A program made the translations under genes and the position numbers. The notes under the pieces are model-generated. The model was not told the DNA's origin. It did not search any database and saw only the letters and a list, made by a program, of their open reading frames with translations. DNA of 36,357 nt from Flavobacteriales bacterium. Its GTDB lineage: Bacteria > Bacteroidota > Bacteroidia > Flavobacteriales_D > JAHECK01. Location: contig JAHECK010000018.1 of assembly GCA_024641785.1 (NCBI GenBank), positions 1 through 36,357 on the forward strand. The letters are read 5' to 3'. This document shows, one piece after another, positions 11,508 through 17,989 of the stretch; position 1 is the first letter of the stretch, and each line of letters starts with the position of its first letter.

Positions 11508-11948
11508 ATGAAGAATAGTGTATTTGTATTTTTTGTTGGCATTTTTCTAAGTGCATGCTCTGTTGAACCACAAGAAATTCTATTTGGACAAGATGCTTGC
11601 GATTTTTGTAAAATGACCATTGTTGATAGTCAACATGCAACAGAATTGGTTAGCCCAAAAGGGAAAGCATACAAATTCGATGCGATCGAATGCATGATGA
11701 ATTATCTAAATAGAAATGTAATTGAAAGTGAAAAAATGGCTTTTATTTTAGTCATGAATTATGATCAACCGGGTGAATTAATAGATGCAAAAGAGGCATT
11801 TTATATTTACTCTGAAAATATCGCTAGCCCGATGGGAGCTTTTTTAAGTGCAGTCGACAGTGAAAAAGTCGCTAATCAAATTGTTGAATTAAAAAGTGGA
11901 GAAGTTTTCGATTGGATGCTTTTAAAAGACCGTTATAAAGTAAAATAA
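11508..11948 (+). CDS. nosL: NosL copper-chaperone lipoprotein
   Basis: NosL binds Cu(I) in the periplasm and delivers it to apo-NosZ. The 146-aa product starts with a lipoprotein signal (FVGIFLSAC, Cys17). The motif CDFCKM at 31-36 supplies the conserved Cys-x2-Cys-x-Met. The segment GKAYKFDAIECMMNYLN is the conserved part where the family has F-D-[SA]-x-x-C-[ML]. Length is in the usual range for compact NosL proteins. It lies 35 bp after the unknown membrane protein and is followed at once by a terminator. A GAGG sits only one base before the ATG, too close to be a normal ribosome binding site. Confidence 0.93.
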   Translation: MKNSVFVFFVGIFLSACSVEPQEILFGQDACDFCKMTIVDSQHATELVSPKGKAYKFDAIECMMNYLNRNVIESEKMAFILVMNYDQPGELIDAKEAFYIYSENIASPMGAFLSAVDSEKVANQIVELKSGEVFDWMLLKDRYKVK

Positions 11949-11953
11949 TTGAT

Positions 11954-11989
11954 CATCCTCATTTGTTTTAATATTTGAGGATGTTTTTT
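11954..11989 (+). terminator. Intrinsic terminator between nosL and nosD
   Basis: CATCCTCA (11954-11961) pairs perfectly with TGAGGATG (11976-11983) across a 14-nt loop, and six T follow directly (11984-11989). The hairpin covers an alternative upstream ATG for nosD at 11975, which supports the nosD start at 12020. It is the second terminator inside the nos cluster; the stem is shorter and the loop larger than in the one after nosZ, so partial read-through is likely. Confidence 0.8.
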
Positions 11990-12019
11990 GAAAATAGAAA
12001 CAAGGAATTTGAACGAATA

Positions 12020-13246
12020 ATGAAGGGAATATCTTTCTTTTCTGTACTCCTATTATTACTCCCTTTTCAGCTATTTGGAAAAGTGTTTAAAGTAACGAAA
12101 CCTAGTGAACTTATCACTAATGCGATCGCCTTGGCATCTCCTCATGATACCATTATCGTTTCCGAAGGAATCTATAATCAGGGACCTATTATTATCGATA
12201 AACCGATCACAATGATAGGGGTAGATTACCCTGTTTTAGACGGTGAATTAAAAGGGGGAGTGTTGACAATAAAGGCAGATAGTGTTTGGTTTGAAGGATT
12301 TGTAATTAAAAATGTCTCAACAAGTTATATTGAAGACTTAGCCGGCATCCGAGTATCGAATTCTTCGGGTTTTACCATTATCAATAATAAATTGCACAAT
12401 ACTTTTTTTGGAGTTTTCCTGGAAGCATCTGACCATGGTTTAGTTGAGAATAATGAAGTTATCGGTGAAGCAGTAGATCAATATAATTCAGGAAACGGAA
12501 TTCATCTCTGGCAATGTAATAACATTTCTATCATCAATAATCATGTGAGCAAACATAGAGATGGTATCTATTTTGAATTTGTAGATAATAGTCGGATCAT
12601 AGGAAATAGAAGTGATCATAATCTTAGATACGGGCTGCATTTCATGTTTTCAAACCAGGATTTGTACGAGAAGAACATCTTTGAAAAGAATGGAGCTGGA
12701 GTAGCAGTGATGTTTTCGAAGTTCATCAATATGTATTATAATACTTTTAAAGATAATTGGGGACAATCATCCTACGGACTTTTACTTAAAGAGATTTATG
12801 ATGGAGAATTGATAGGAAATACATTTGATCGAAATACCATCGGGATCAATGCAGAAGGTTCCAACAGGCTTATCATTACAAATAATACATTTATCCAGAA
12901 TGGTTGGGCAGTTAAGATTTTAGGTGCTTGTTATAACAATACAATCTCAGAAAACAATTTCATGTATAATACTTTCGACGTCGCTTATTCCGGAGGACTA
13001 AATGAAAATATATTCGAAAAAAATTACTGGTCCGATTATACAGGATATGATCTGGACAGAGATGGGGTCGGAGACGTTCCCTATCGCCCGGTAAGATTAT
13101 TTACTTATGTGGTAAACCAGGTTCCGGAATCCATCATATTAATTCGTAGTTTATTCGTCTATCTTATCGATTTTTCGGAAAAAGTTTCTCCCATCTTCAC
13201 ACCCGATAATTTAGTAGATGCTCAACCAAAAATGCTGCCTTATTAG
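12020..13246 (+). CDS. nosD: NosD periplasmic copper-centre assembly protein
   Basis: NosD works with the NosFY ABC transporter to build the CuZ centre of NosZ. I choose ATG 12020, giving 408 aa, because MKGISFFSVLLLLLPFQLFG is a signal peptide; the in-frame ATG at 11975 lies inside the upstream terminator hairpin. The body is a right-handed beta-helix of the CASH/NosD type: repeated short turns with Asn ladders such as NNKLHNTFFGVFLEASDHG, NNHVSKHRDGIYFEFVDNS, GNRSDHNLRYGLHFMFSNQ and GNTFDRNTIGINAEGSNR. The family motif around NYWSDYTGYDLDRDGVGDVP is present, followed by PYRP. The stop codon is directly adjacent to the nosF start. Confidence 0.95.
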   Translation: MKGISFFSVLLLLLPFQLFGKVFKVTKPSELITNAIALASPHDTIIVSEGIYNQGPIIIDKPITMIGVDYPVLDGELKGGVLTIKADSVWFEGFVIKNVSTSYIEDLAGIRVSNSSGFTIINNKLHNTFFGVFLEASDHGLVENNEVIGEAVDQYNSGNGIHLWQCNNISIINNHVSKHRDGIYFEFVDNSRIIGNRSDHNLRYGLHFMFSNQDLYEKNIFEKNGAGVAVMFSKFINMYYNTFKDNWGQSSYGLLLKEIYDGELIGNTFDRNTIGINAEGSNRLIITNNTFIQNGWAVKILGACYNNTISENNFMYNTFDVAYSGGLNENIFEKNYWSDYTGYDLDRDGVGDVPYRPVRLFTYVVNQVPESIILIRSLFVYLIDFSEKVSPIFTPDNLVDAQPKMLPY

Positions 13247-13963
13247 ATGATTAAAATAGAGAGATTAAATAAAAAATTCGGAAAGTTAGAAGTCTTGAAA
13301 GACCTTAGCTTAGAGATCCGTAAAGGCAGTATCAATGCGATATTGGGTCCTAACGGATCGGGTAAAACGACTTTAATAAAGTGCCTGCTTGGAATGGTTA
13401 TTCCGGATAATGGGTCTATTAAAATAAATGATTTAGAAGTAAAAGATCAATGGAAATACCGCGATGAGATCGATTATATGCCTCAAATAGCAAATTTTCC
13501 TTCTAATCTTAAAGTGAAGGAGATCATTTCGATGTTGAAAGATATTCGAAACAGAGAAGCCAGAGATGCAGAATTGATCGAATATTTTGAACTGACTCCT
13601 TATTTGAATAAGCAACTGAGTTATTTGTCAGGGGGAACCAAACAAAAAGTAAATATCGTTTTAGCTTTTATGTTCGACAATCCATTATTGATACTGGATG
13701 AACCAACGAATGGACTTGATCCGGTAGCATTGATCAAATTAAAGGAATTGATCGCTAAGGAAATTAAACTTGGTAAAACCATTTTATTTACCACGCATAT
13801 TATCCGTTTAGTAGAAGAATTAGCAGAAGATATCGTCTTTTTATTAGAAGGGAAGATCTACTATCAAGGACCGGTTAGCGGGTTAATTGATAAACATAAA
13901 GAACTTGACCTTGAGCATACTATCGCTACTATTTTTAGTAAACATGTAAAAGAAGAAGCATGA
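13247..13963 (+). CDS. nosF: NosF ABC transporter ATP-binding protein
   Basis: ATPase of the NosFY transporter that energises maturation of the NosZ CuZ site. The 238-aa product has Walker A GPNGSGKTT (34-42), the Q-loop region YMPQIANFP (~78-86), the signature LSGGTKQK (127-134), Walker B LLILDEP (147-153) with the D-loop GLDP, and the switch His in FTTHIIRL. The start codon directly follows the nosD stop, and the last four bases overlap the nosY start (ATGA). This indicates translational coupling in a nosDFY unit. Confidence 0.95.
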   Translation: MIKIERLNKKFGKLEVLKDLSLEIRKGSINAILGPNGSGKTTLIKCLLGMVIPDNGSIKINDLEVKDQWKYRDEIDYMPQIANFPSNLKVKEIISMLKDIRNREARDAELIEYFELTPYLNKQLSYLSGGTKQKVNIVLAFMFDNPLLILDEPTNGLDPVALIKLKELIAKEIKLGKTILFTTHIIRLVEELAEDIVFLLEGKIYYQGPVSGLIDKHKELDLEHTIATIFSKHVKEEA

Positions 13964-14742
13964 TAAAAATACTTAAATACTCATTTTTTGATCTGATCCG
14001 AAGTCGCTGGAGTTTAATTTACTTTTCCTTCTACTTTTTACTCGCTTTTGTATTGCTTTTTCTAAATAATGATATTTCTAAAGCGATCATTACAATGATG
14101 AATGTGATCATTATTTTAGGTCCGCTGATCGGAATTGTTTTCGGAATAATGTATTATTATAATTCGTCAGAATTTACTGAATTGTTGCTGGCACAACCCA
14201 TAAAAAGAAGGTCGATCTTTCTAGGTCAATTTTTAGGACTAGCATTTTCGCTTTCATTGAGTTTAGTCTTAGGTCTGGGAATACCATTTGTTTTTTATGG
14301 CTTATTCAGATCAGAAGAGATCTTAAATTTTGCAGCCTTATTATGGATCGGCTTTATACTCACATTTATTTTTTCCGGGATCGCATTTTACATTGCTTTG
14401 GCAAATCAGAACAGAATTAAAGGATTTGGGATGGCCATTCTTTTTTGGCTTTTCATGGCGGTTATATATGATGGGGTCTTTTTATTACTACTTGTTTGGT
14501 TCCGAGAATATCCCCTTGATAATTTCGCTTTGATCTCAAGTGTATTAAATCCTATCGATCTAAGCCGGATCATGATCCTTTTAAAACTAGATATTTCTTC
14601 TTTAATGGGATATACGGGCGCGGTATTTAAGAACTTTTTTGCAAGCGGAAGCGGATTACTTGCTTCGTATTTAATATTATTAGCCTGGGCCTTTGTTCCT
14701 ATTTTAGCTATTGTTTTTAAGGCGAAAAGGAAGGATTTTTAA
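13960..14742 (+). CDS. nosY: NosY ABC transporter permease
   Basis: Membrane partner of NosF. The 260-aa protein shows about six membrane segments (near residues 17-37, 42-67, 87-112, 123-146, 155-180 and 236-256) and the ABC-2 type layout of NosY. An early cytoplasmic loop after the second segment contains SSEFTELLLAQPIKRRSIFLGQ, matching the conserved NosY loop before membrane segment 3. The gene overlaps nosF by four bases and ends the cluster; the next gene, ffh, has its own promoter. Confidence 0.93.
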   Translation: MIKILKYSFFDLIRSRWSLIYFSFYFLLAFVLLFLNNDISKAIITMMNVIIILGPLIGIVFGIMYYYNSSEFTELLLAQPIKRRSIFLGQFLGLAFSLSLSLVLGLGIPFVFYGLFRSEEILNFAALLWIGFILTFIFSGIAFYIALANQNRIKGFGMAILFWLFMAVIYDGVFLLLLVWFREYPLDNFALISSVLNPIDLSRIMILLKLDISSLMGYTGAVFKNFFASGSGLLASYLILLAWAFVPILAIVFKAKRKDF

Positions 14743-16189: not shown

Positions 16190-17065
16190 ATGAAAATTCT
16201 TGACGGTAAAAAGACTTCAAACGATATTAAAAATGAGATTGCAATTGAAGTTGCTGAAATTCTGAAAAAGGGAGGTCGTCCTCCACATTTAGCAGCTATT
16301 TTAGTTGGAGAAGATGGAGCAAGTTTAACCTACGTCAATAGTAAAGTCAAAGCCTGTCAAAGAATTGGATTCGAATCTACTTTAATACGACTTAGCAAAG
16401 ATATAAGTGAAGATGAATTATTAGAAGAGATCGATAAATTGAATAATGATCCGGATCTGGATGGTTTTATTATTCAACTTCCATTGCCTTCTCATTTCAA
16501 TGAAAATAAAATATTAAACGCTGTTGATCCAAATAAAGATGTCGATGGATTTCATCCGAGTAATGTGGGAAAAATGGTTTTAAATCAGCCTACTTTTCTT
16601 CCTGCGACTCCAATGGGGATCATGGAATTGCTGAAGAGATATCAAATTGAAACATCCGGAAAACATTGTGTGGTTATTGGGAGGAGTCATATTGTTGGAT
16701 CTCCGATCTCCATTCTGATGGCGCGAAATACGAATCCGGGAAATGCAACCGTGACCTTAACCCATTCTCGTACTAAAAATCTTAAAGAATTAACCTTACA
16801 GGCAGATATTATTGTTGTGGCTTTAGGTAAAGCTGAATTTTTAACCGGAGATATGGTGAAAGAGGGAGTGGTTGTTATCGATGTTGGAATAACCAGAGTG
16901 GCAGATCAAAGTAAAAAGAGTGGTTTTAAACTATATGGAGATGTTCATTTCGATGAACTAGCTGAAAAGGCAAGTTATATCACGCCTGTTCCGGGAGGGG
17001 TAGGACCAATGACCATCGCTTCTTTATTGATGAATACACTTCAATCTTATAAGACTAGAAATTAA
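16190..17065 (+). CDS. folD: FolD: methylene-THF dehydrogenase / methenyl-THF cyclohydrolase
   Basis: Bifunctional cytosolic enzyme interconverting 5,10-methylene-THF, 5,10-methenyl-THF and 10-formyl-THF. The 291-aa product has the catalytic YVNSK (48-52, Tyr48/Lys52), QLPLPSHF near 96-103 and [13 protein letters not shown]. The Rossmann dinucleotide motif GRSHIVGSP is at 164-172, and the C-terminal signature [16 protein letters not shown] is complete. Length is typical. It follows ffh by 12 bp, without a Shine-Dalgarno. Directly downstream lies the structured-RNA candidate. Confidence 0.97.
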
Positions 17066-17097
17066 TTTTCGGAATCTTTTTTTAAGCTAATTTTCTT

Positions 17098-17105
17098 TAT
17101 ATTTG
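17098..17105 (+). promoter_or_regulatory. Promoter -7 element before the RNA candidate
   Basis: TATATTTG is a full match to TAnnTTTG, 33 bp after the folD stop and about 30 bp before the first strand of the closing stem of the RNA candidate. A start site near 17112 would be expected. It could instead serve a long queE leader. Confidence 0.45.
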
Positions 17106-17111
17106 AGATAG

Positions 17112-17324
17112 AAACAATCGTTCTTATTTATATTACCCACGCAGCGACATTTTGTTTGAAAAACTAACATTATTTAAATTGGAAATTTGCTCGGGTTAAT
17201 AAAGGCGGGCCTCATCAGTCTCAGACTGATTCAATTTCGATTGGCGGAGGATTACTGCGTTACACCGGCTATTCCACTCATGTCATTTGAGTTTTTCTAA
17301 ACTTAGCTGTGTGGGTTTATTTTT
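17112..17324 (+). ncRNA. Candidate structured RNA between folD and queE (6S-like outline)
   Basis: This ~200-nt stretch folds back on itself over a long range. CCCACGCAGC (17136-17145) pairs with GCTGTGTGGG (17306-17315), ten pairs with one G-U. Inside it, GTTTGAAAAACT (17154-17165) pairs with AGTTTTTC plus AAAC (17290-17297, 17299-17302) with one bulged base. The middle holds ATCAGTC-TCA-GACTGAT (17214-17230) and CAAT-TTCG-ATTG (17232-17243), possibly enclosed by CCTC/GAGG. A T-rich tract (TTTATTTTT) follows the closing stem, and a -7 box lies upstream. The long rod with a large central open region and ~180-nt size is the outline of 6S RNA, and E. coli ssrS also neighbours a folate gene. It could instead be a queE leader. 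Family assignment is inference. Confidence 0.5.
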
Positions 17325-17325
17325 G
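17318..17325 (+). promoter_or_regulatory. Promoter -7 element of queE
   Basis: TATTTTTG fully matches TAnnTTTG and is followed by CAC, like the rpsF and aconitase boxes. It lies 37 bp before the queE ATG at 17363 and coincides with the T-rich tail that would end the upstream RNA candidate. Its position shows that the in-frame ATG at 17309 would be outside the transcript. Confidence 0.5.
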
Positions 17326-17362
17326 CACTTATTTTTACTTTAATTCAGATTTTCAGTTTCAA

Positions 17363-17989
17363 ATGATAGAGCCGCAATACAGAGGTGATAAAGTATTTTA
17401 TCCTGTGATGGAACACTTTTATACTTTGCAGGGTGAAGGAAATTATACAGGTCAGGCTGCATATTTTATACGACTTGCCGGCTGTGATGTAGGGTGTTCA
17501 TGGTGCGATGTTAAAGAAAGTTGGGCAGTGGCTAAAGATCAATACATCGATGTTGATCTATTATTACATGAAGTGGAGGCATCTGCTACAAAAATTGTAG
17601 TGATCACCGGAGGAGAGCCTGCCATGTATCATCTAGGTCCTCTTACAGAGAGCTTGAAAAAGCTCGATGTAAAGATCCATATAGAAACTTCAGGAGCTTA
17701 TCCGATCTCGGGTAATTTAGATTGGATCTGCGTTTCGCCTAAGCGATTTAAAACACCTTTATTAGAATCGATACATCTTGCTGATGAATTAAAAATGATC
17801 GTCGTGAATCGACAGGATCTCATTTGGGCAGAAGAATTATCCCTCGAATGCAAAGAAGGATGTTTATTGCTTTTGCAACCGGAATGGGATCGGGCAGAGA
17901 AAGTATATCCAATGATCATTCAGTTTATTAAGGAACATCCTATATGGAGATTATCTCTTCAACTACATAAATTTTTAAACATCCCCTAG
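17363..17989 (+). CDS. queE: QueE: 7-carboxy-7-deazaguanine synthase
   Basis: Radical SAM enzyme converting 6-carboxy-tetrahydropterin to 7-carboxy-7-deazaguanine on the way to preQ0 and queuosine tRNA modification. I choose ATG 17363 (208 aa): the conserved region begins at VMEHFYTLQGEGNYTG, and an earlier in-frame ATG (17309) lies upstream of the promoter box. The iron-sulfur Cys cluster is C41-x3-C45-x2-C48 in LAGCDVGCSWCDVKESW, with ITGGEPAMY as the SAM-binding GGE motif. The C-terminus SLQLHKFLNIP is the usual QueE ending. Length fits Bacteroidota QueE. No other queuosine gene is in the window. The next gene starts 2 bp after its stop. Confidence 0.95.
   Translation: MIEPQYRGDKVFYPVMEHFYTLQGEGNYTGQAAYFIRLAGCDVGCSWCDVKESWAVAKDQYIDVDLLLHEVEASATKIVVITGGEPAMYHLGPLTESLKKLDVKIHIETSGAYPISGNLDWICVSPKRFKTPLLESIHLADELKMIVVNRQDLIWAEELSLECKEGCLLLLQPEWDRAEKVYPMIIQFIKEHPIWRLSLQLHKFLNIP

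Follow-up and report, generated by a model that had tools for sequence, protein, structure and literature searches.

6S RNA in the Bacteroidota

6S RNA sets how RNA polymerase is shared between growth and starvation. In the Bacteroidota, both the primary sigma factor and the promoters on which it acts (-7/-33) differ from those of E. coli. The known 6S RNAs are built from a closing stem, a central bubble, and an apical arm, which together imitate an open promoter and so hold back RNA polymerase. Synthesis of a product RNA from the 5' side of the bubble unwinds stem P2, and in E. coli a hairpin made from the 3' bubble and the P2 3' strand drives release (PMC8876501). Two Rfam families concern the Bacteroidota specifically. 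Both were introduced by Weinberg et al. 2010 (PMC2864571), RF01693 (Bacteroidales-1) as a motif without a known function and RF01685 (6S-Flavo) as a 6S RNA of Bacteroidetes; Rfam now describes the former as "6S-Bacteroidales RNA suggested". A 6S RNA together with two classes of product RNA has been detected by dRNA-seq in Bacteroides (PMC7366714), in a text that does not use the name RF01693, such that equating this RNA with RF01693 is a reading of Rfam's description. 6S RNA is also expressed in Flavobacterium psychrophilum (PMC9723704).

The stretch of DNA analysed here, called the window, comprises 36,357 nucleotides from a Flavobacteriales bacterium. Its folD-queE gap (17066-17362), which is flanked by FolD (16190-17065) and a QueE-type protein (17363-17989), very probably contains the only 6S RNA gene in the genome of this member of the Bacteroidota. 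The RNA is an unannotated member of a known RNA kind, and is almost certainly a 6S RNA. The features of the locus, all on the plus strand, are as follows.

17098..17105, plus strand: -7 promoter box TATATTTG, an exact match to the consensus TAnnTTTG
17112..17135, plus strand: predicted 5' leader of the transcript, its start placed by spacing from the box
17119-17125, plus strand: GTTCTTA element in the leader, possibly boxA-like
17136..17315, plus strand: 6S RNA core, positions 1-182 of family models R1/R2, from the RF01693 match, the R1 score, and covariation
17136..17145, plus strand: 5' arm of closing stem P1, CCCACGCAGC, partner 17306-17315
17154..17165, plus strand: 5' arm of stem P2, GTTTGAAAAACT, partner 17290-17302
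17166..17179, plus strand: 5' side of the central bubble, AACATTATTTAAAT, unpaired in the predicted fold
17180..17203, plus strand: 5' side of the apical arm P3/P4, partner 17256-17276
17204..17211, plus strand: internal-loop strand of the apical arm, GGCGGGCC, conserved across the phylum
17214..17243, plus strand: two apical hairpins in the MFE fold, 17214-17230 and 17232-17243
17249..17255, plus strand: internal-loop strand of the apical arm, GGATTAC, conserved
17277..17289, plus strand: 3' side of the central bubble, CTCATGTCATTTG, which includes CATGT, unpaired in the predicted fold
17288..17305, plus strand: alternative local hairpin UGAGUUU-UUCU-AAACUUA, incompatible with P2
17290..17302, plus strand: 3' arm of P2, AGTTTTTCTAAAC, partner 17154-17165
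17306..17325, plus strand: 3' arm of P1, GCTGTGTGGG (17306-17315), then the T-tract TTTATTTTT, a predicted terminator-like end
17318..17325, plus strand: TATTTTTG, candidate -7 box of queE by its match to TAnnTTTG

The last of these, TATTTTTG, directly follows the RNA and could be the queE promoter. Elsewhere in the window (11508-14742), a NosL-like protein, an ABC transporter ATPase, and a weak match to an ABC-2 membrane protein are encoded in a row that resembles a nos-type accessory cluster.

Relation to the described RNA families

At the curated cut-offs of Rfam, no RNA is matched anywhere in the window. At a permissive threshold, RF01693 matches positions 17140-17322 over its full length (model positions 1-179) with a score of 44.5 bits (E = 3e-6 for a search of 421 nt, 5.8e-6 for one of the whole genome), and this is the sole match in the organism's own 3.3 Mb draft genome. 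The score does not reach the RF01693 gathering cut-off of 60 bits, which is a curation threshold and not a biological feature. The congener scores 57.1 bits with the same model, and several other relatives score 37-46 bits. The gene is unannotated because the copy in this lineage falls below the cut-off of the public model. Judged by this score, the window RNA is a homologue of RF01693 and not a listed member of it. With RF00013, the general 6S model, nothing is found in the organism's own genome at E <= 10, nor in a Bacteroides control genome in which RF01693 does match. RF01685 also gives no match in the organism's own genome at E <= 10, and is linked to the window RNA only via the model R2 described below, while the preQ1 families have no match in the window or the gap. 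Matches of TUG1_2, MIR1514, and sR14 on the gap were weak (E 0.4-5) and were discarded as chance.

Relatives' loci were collected by searching 100 genomes of the order with QueE. The congener and members of several other families carry, ahead of queE, a block made up of AAxGGCGGGCC, two hairpins, and GAGGATTAC. Crocinitomicaceae are among the genomes of the order, as judged from 100% identity between one locus and a named record, which places the organism in that part of the Bacteroidota. Two models were built: R1 from 11 sequences of this lineage only, with no Bacteroides sequence in its training, and R2 from 39 sequences. The window scores 156.7 bits with R1 by construction, since it belongs to the training set. 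R1 matches exactly once in each of 72 of 199 genomes of the order and, with strict filters, not at all in 127; for the latter, either a single model does not span the divergence of the family, or some genomes lack the RNA. In the phylum sample, R1 recovers two Bacteroides loci of RF01693, G238 (E 6e-10) and G230 (E 2e-7), at coordinates identical to those given by RF01693; E-values of both R1 and R2 are rough by the tool's own statement. These reciprocal matches establish homology to an experimentally supported 6S RNA. R2 has one match each in 126 of 297 genomes of the phylum, and lands on RF01685 loci of genomes outside its training set, such as G130, G134, G182, G234, G242, and G029. Finally, at locus L006 RF01685 scores above its cut-off, and RF01693 matches there too. 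From the cross-matches of R1 and R2 and from L006 we conclude that RF01693, RF01685, and the window RNA in all probability form one family, single-copy wherever it is found. RF01693 and RF01685 overlap, and have no common clan in the Rfam listing. R1 also gives weak scores (25-28 bits) on the reverse strand of L120, L122, and L124, which is due to the symmetry of the rod.

The first-pass annotation had described a likely novel structured RNA, possibly the 6S RNA of its lineage, and had proposed a search with 6S and preQ1 models. That search returned RF01693 and neither RF00013 nor a preQ1 family. The identity as an independent 6S RNA of the lineage is well supported by this match, by covariation, and by the R1/R2 cross-matches; the label "undescribed" was wrong at the level of the family, whose relatives are covered by RF01693, RF01685, and the dRNA-seq work on Bacteroides (PMC7366714).

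Common ancestry with Bacteroidales-1 and 6S-Flavo could also belong to an independent, Bacteroidota-specific RNA that does not act as a 6S RNA, for instance one whose GGCGGGCC/GGATTAC loop works on another partner. Such an RNA would account for the apical internal loop, and not the central bubble, being the most conserved part of the molecule, and for the want of an RF00013 match at the sequence level; the 6S label of both Rfam families also comes mainly from shape and from dRNA-seq product RNAs in one species. It is nevertheless improbable in view of the rod with its closing stem and central bubble, the release-type hairpin in most homologues, the product RNAs of the Bacteroides 6S RNA (PMC7366714), and the zapA neighborhood in Flavobacteriaceae-type genomes. 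A survey of 6S RNA across bacteria was reportedly made by Wehner et al. in 2014, and the 6S RNA of this lineage may already be listed in it.

Genomic position and the link to queE

The RNA lies directly upstream of queE in 18 of the 48 genomes of the order in which both genes were located, and on another contig or far from queE in the other 30. Many queE genes in the order are not preceded by this RNA. With one copy per matching genome, the RNA is independent of any one downstream gene. In Flavobacteriaceae/Chryseobacterium-type genomes, it is found between zapA and rny, and in one Bacteroides locus beside dnaJ. zapA also neighbors ssrS in Proteobacteria. In the organism's own genome (L179, contig C200), zapA and rny are directly adjacent and leave no room for an RNA, and the gene must therefore have moved at least once. 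No conserved downstream neighbor was found in other families of the order, where unrelated genes (IMPDH, DUF4139, DUF4301) follow.

Attention had earlier been drawn to a folate gene beside E. coli ssrS as a parallel to folD at this locus. Only two genomes of a single genus, the window's own and that of its one congener, have folD upstream of the RNA. In other relatives the RNA accompanies queE without folD or lies elsewhere, and in other parts of the phylum folD and queE commonly adjoin with no such RNA between them. Folate linkage was consequently rejected as evidence for a 6S RNA, and the link looks coincidental.

The other reading offered at the outset was that of a regulatory leader of queE, that is, a cis-acting element or riboswitch of the queuosine/preQ1 type that controls translation or termination into the gene. 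The 18 genomes with the RNA directly upstream of queE are in keeping with it. Against it stand the 30 genomes with the RNA elsewhere, which rule out a fixed role as queE leader, the zapA-rny or dnaJ neighborhood in other groups, the queE genes that lack the RNA, the lack of a preQ1 match, and the T-tract that closes the RNA before queE is reached. A queE leader is very unlikely on these grounds.

Fold and covariation

Two nested long-range stems had been recognized in the first-pass annotation, and both are present in the predicted fold and backed by covariation among relatives. Stem 1 (17136-17145 with 17306-17315) has 10 paired positions, including one G-U, and stem 2 (17154-17165 with 17290-17302) has 12 paired positions and one bulged base. 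The local hairpins ATCAGTC-TCA-GACTGAT (17214-17230) and CAAT-TTCG-ATTG (17232-17243), the -7 box, and the T-tract after the closing stem likewise lie where they had been placed. The minimum free energy of 17130-17325 is -54.7 kcal/mol, compared to -39.4 +/- 3.8 kcal/mol for 200 dinucleotide shuffles (z = -3.98), none of which folds as well.

In a plain MAFFT alignment of 11 sequences, 93.3% of the cells in the proposed helices are paired, and both partners are changed in 25 of 42 pairs, a count that none of 500 shuffles reaches (12.5 +/- 1.9). Sliding the partner by 1-3 columns lowers pairing to 34-51%. The significance from shuffles is inflated by the relatedness of the sequences, a weakness from which the slide control is free. 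In the closing stem alone, 9 of 10 pairs are changed on both sides. Among 39 homologues, in an alignment that was fitted to the model and is biased towards it, 92.5% of cells are paired and 42 of 43 pairs show pair-preserving changes on both sides (0/500 shuffles reach this), with 403 changed cells as opposed to 120 in shuffles; when the partner is slid, pairing falls to 37-48%. All pairs are changed on both sides in P1 (10/10, with 98.7% of cells paired), in P2 (12/12, 93.6%), and in helices 3 and 4 (15/15). Since covariation is seen in both the 11- and the 39-sequence alignments, the two stems are real RNA helices. Chance inverted repeats in an AT-rich gap, for which nothing speaks beyond the low score relative to the Rfam cut-off, can be dismissed in the light of the z of -3.98 and the pair-preserving changes across 39 genomes.

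The MFE fold and the covariation across the 39 homologues agree on a rod of ~180-200 nt with a closing stem, a large central bubble, and an apical arm. Across the phylum, conservation is highest in GGCGGGCC and GGATTAC, the latter invariant in the 11-sequence alignment and nearly so in the 39. CTAACA at the border of P2 and the bubble is strongly conserved across families, and caTgT in the 3' side of the central bubble is conserved. The apical hairpins vary in length and sequence, and each relative forms its own pair.

A proposed 6S cycle and the 3'-strand hairpin

The mechanism that we infer for the window RNA is modelled on other 6S RNAs. The predicted fold is a rod in which the closing stems P1 and P2 lead into the central bubble (17166-17179 / 17277-17289) and then into an apical arm, which bears two hairpins in addition to the GGCGGGCC/GGATTAC loop. 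In nutrient-poor cells, the RNA would imitate a melted promoter and bind the RNA polymerase that carries the primary sigma factor. The polymerase would make a short product RNA with the 5' bubble and P2 strand as template, unwinding P2, whereupon the freed 3' strand could snap into a hairpin of its own and the polymerase be released. By analogy with other 6S RNAs (PMC8876501), the template is probably the P2 5' arm with the adjoining AACA (17154-17169). The predicted product RNA complementary to this segment would be 5'-GUUAGUUUUUCAAAC, or near to it.

Release through a hairpin that competes with P2 is the E. coli type, and is not universal in 6S RNAs. The window's hairpin overlaps the P2 3' arm and therefore excludes P2. 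Between P3 and P1, a hairpin of at least 6 bp is found in the 3' strand of 28 of 39 homologues, against a shuffle mean of 8.4 and a maximum of 15, even as the stem sequences differ greatly among homologues. The mean folding z is -2.3 for the 3' strand and -0.2 for the 5' strand. The competing hairpin is a feature of the homologues as a set that is weak in the window alone, where it is modest (-3.4 kcal/mol, p = 0.05), and it is absent from the Bacteroides members.

Predicted transcription unit and leader

Transcription from the -7 box at 17098-17105 would give an RNA of about 185-210 nt that ends in the T-tract after P1. TATATTTG occurs with the same spacing upstream of the RNA in the congener (L088), many homologues have a TAnnTTTG/TTCG box 24-39 nt ahead of stem P1, and almost all have a T-tract immediately after P1. 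GTTCTT is present within 60 nt of the RNA on its upstream side in 13 of 55 homologues from several families, compared to 2.5% of background windows; carriers of GTTCTT(T) include L134, L146, L152, L163, and L165-L168. A similar AAGTTCTTTGACA lies between the tRNAs and the 23S gene in 3 of 8 loci of the order that were checked. GTTCTT(T) in the leader may be a boxA-like element common to rRNA and 6S RNA genes.

A more speculative and rather doubtful proposal combines these elements and makes the Bacteroidota 6S RNA a distinct sub-type. Here, GGCGGGCC/GGATTAC, about 21 nt from the 3' bubble, would contact the unusual primary sigma factor of the phylum and so replace the -35-like contact of E. 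coli 6S RNA, while the boxA-like AAGTTCTTT in the leader, which resembles an element between the 16S and 23S rRNA genes, would tune synthesis.

The two Bacteroidota models of Rfam and the general 6S model all miss the RNA of this lineage at cut-off. Merging RF01693, RF01685, and the lineages in between would provide a better search model and a covariation-tested structure, and would single out a few conserved elements as targets for mutation in a phylum whose sigma factor and promoters are unusual.

Comparison with known systems

The closest relative is RF01693 (Bacteroidales-1), which shares with the window RNA the full-length 1-179 match, the blocks AAACU..., GGCGGGCC, GGATTAC, and GAGTTT, an equivalent closing stem, and a reciprocal match by a model never trained on RF01693. 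It differs in its genomic neighbors (dnaJ, at one Bacteroides locus) and in that its Bacteroides members are without the 3'-strand hairpin. The outer stems are not annotated in its Rfam structure.

RF01685 (6S-Flavo) is tied to the family in that R2 and RF01685 match the same single locus in many Flavobacteriaceae-type genomes, and L004 and L006 are each matched by both models. In contrast to the window RNA, its model has only 108 positions and no outer stem, and its RNAs lie between zapA and rny.

The canonical 6S RNAs of RF00013, such as E. coli ssrS and B. subtilis 6S-1, differ in that their covariance model has no match here at E <= 10. To our knowledge, a conserved GGCGGGCC/GGATTAC apical loop is no known feature of canonical 6S RNA. 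The likeness to these RNAs is found in the length, the rod, the closing stem, the central bubble, and the apical arm, and extends to a 3'-strand hairpin in competition with P2, which recalls the release mechanism of E. coli (PMC8876501).
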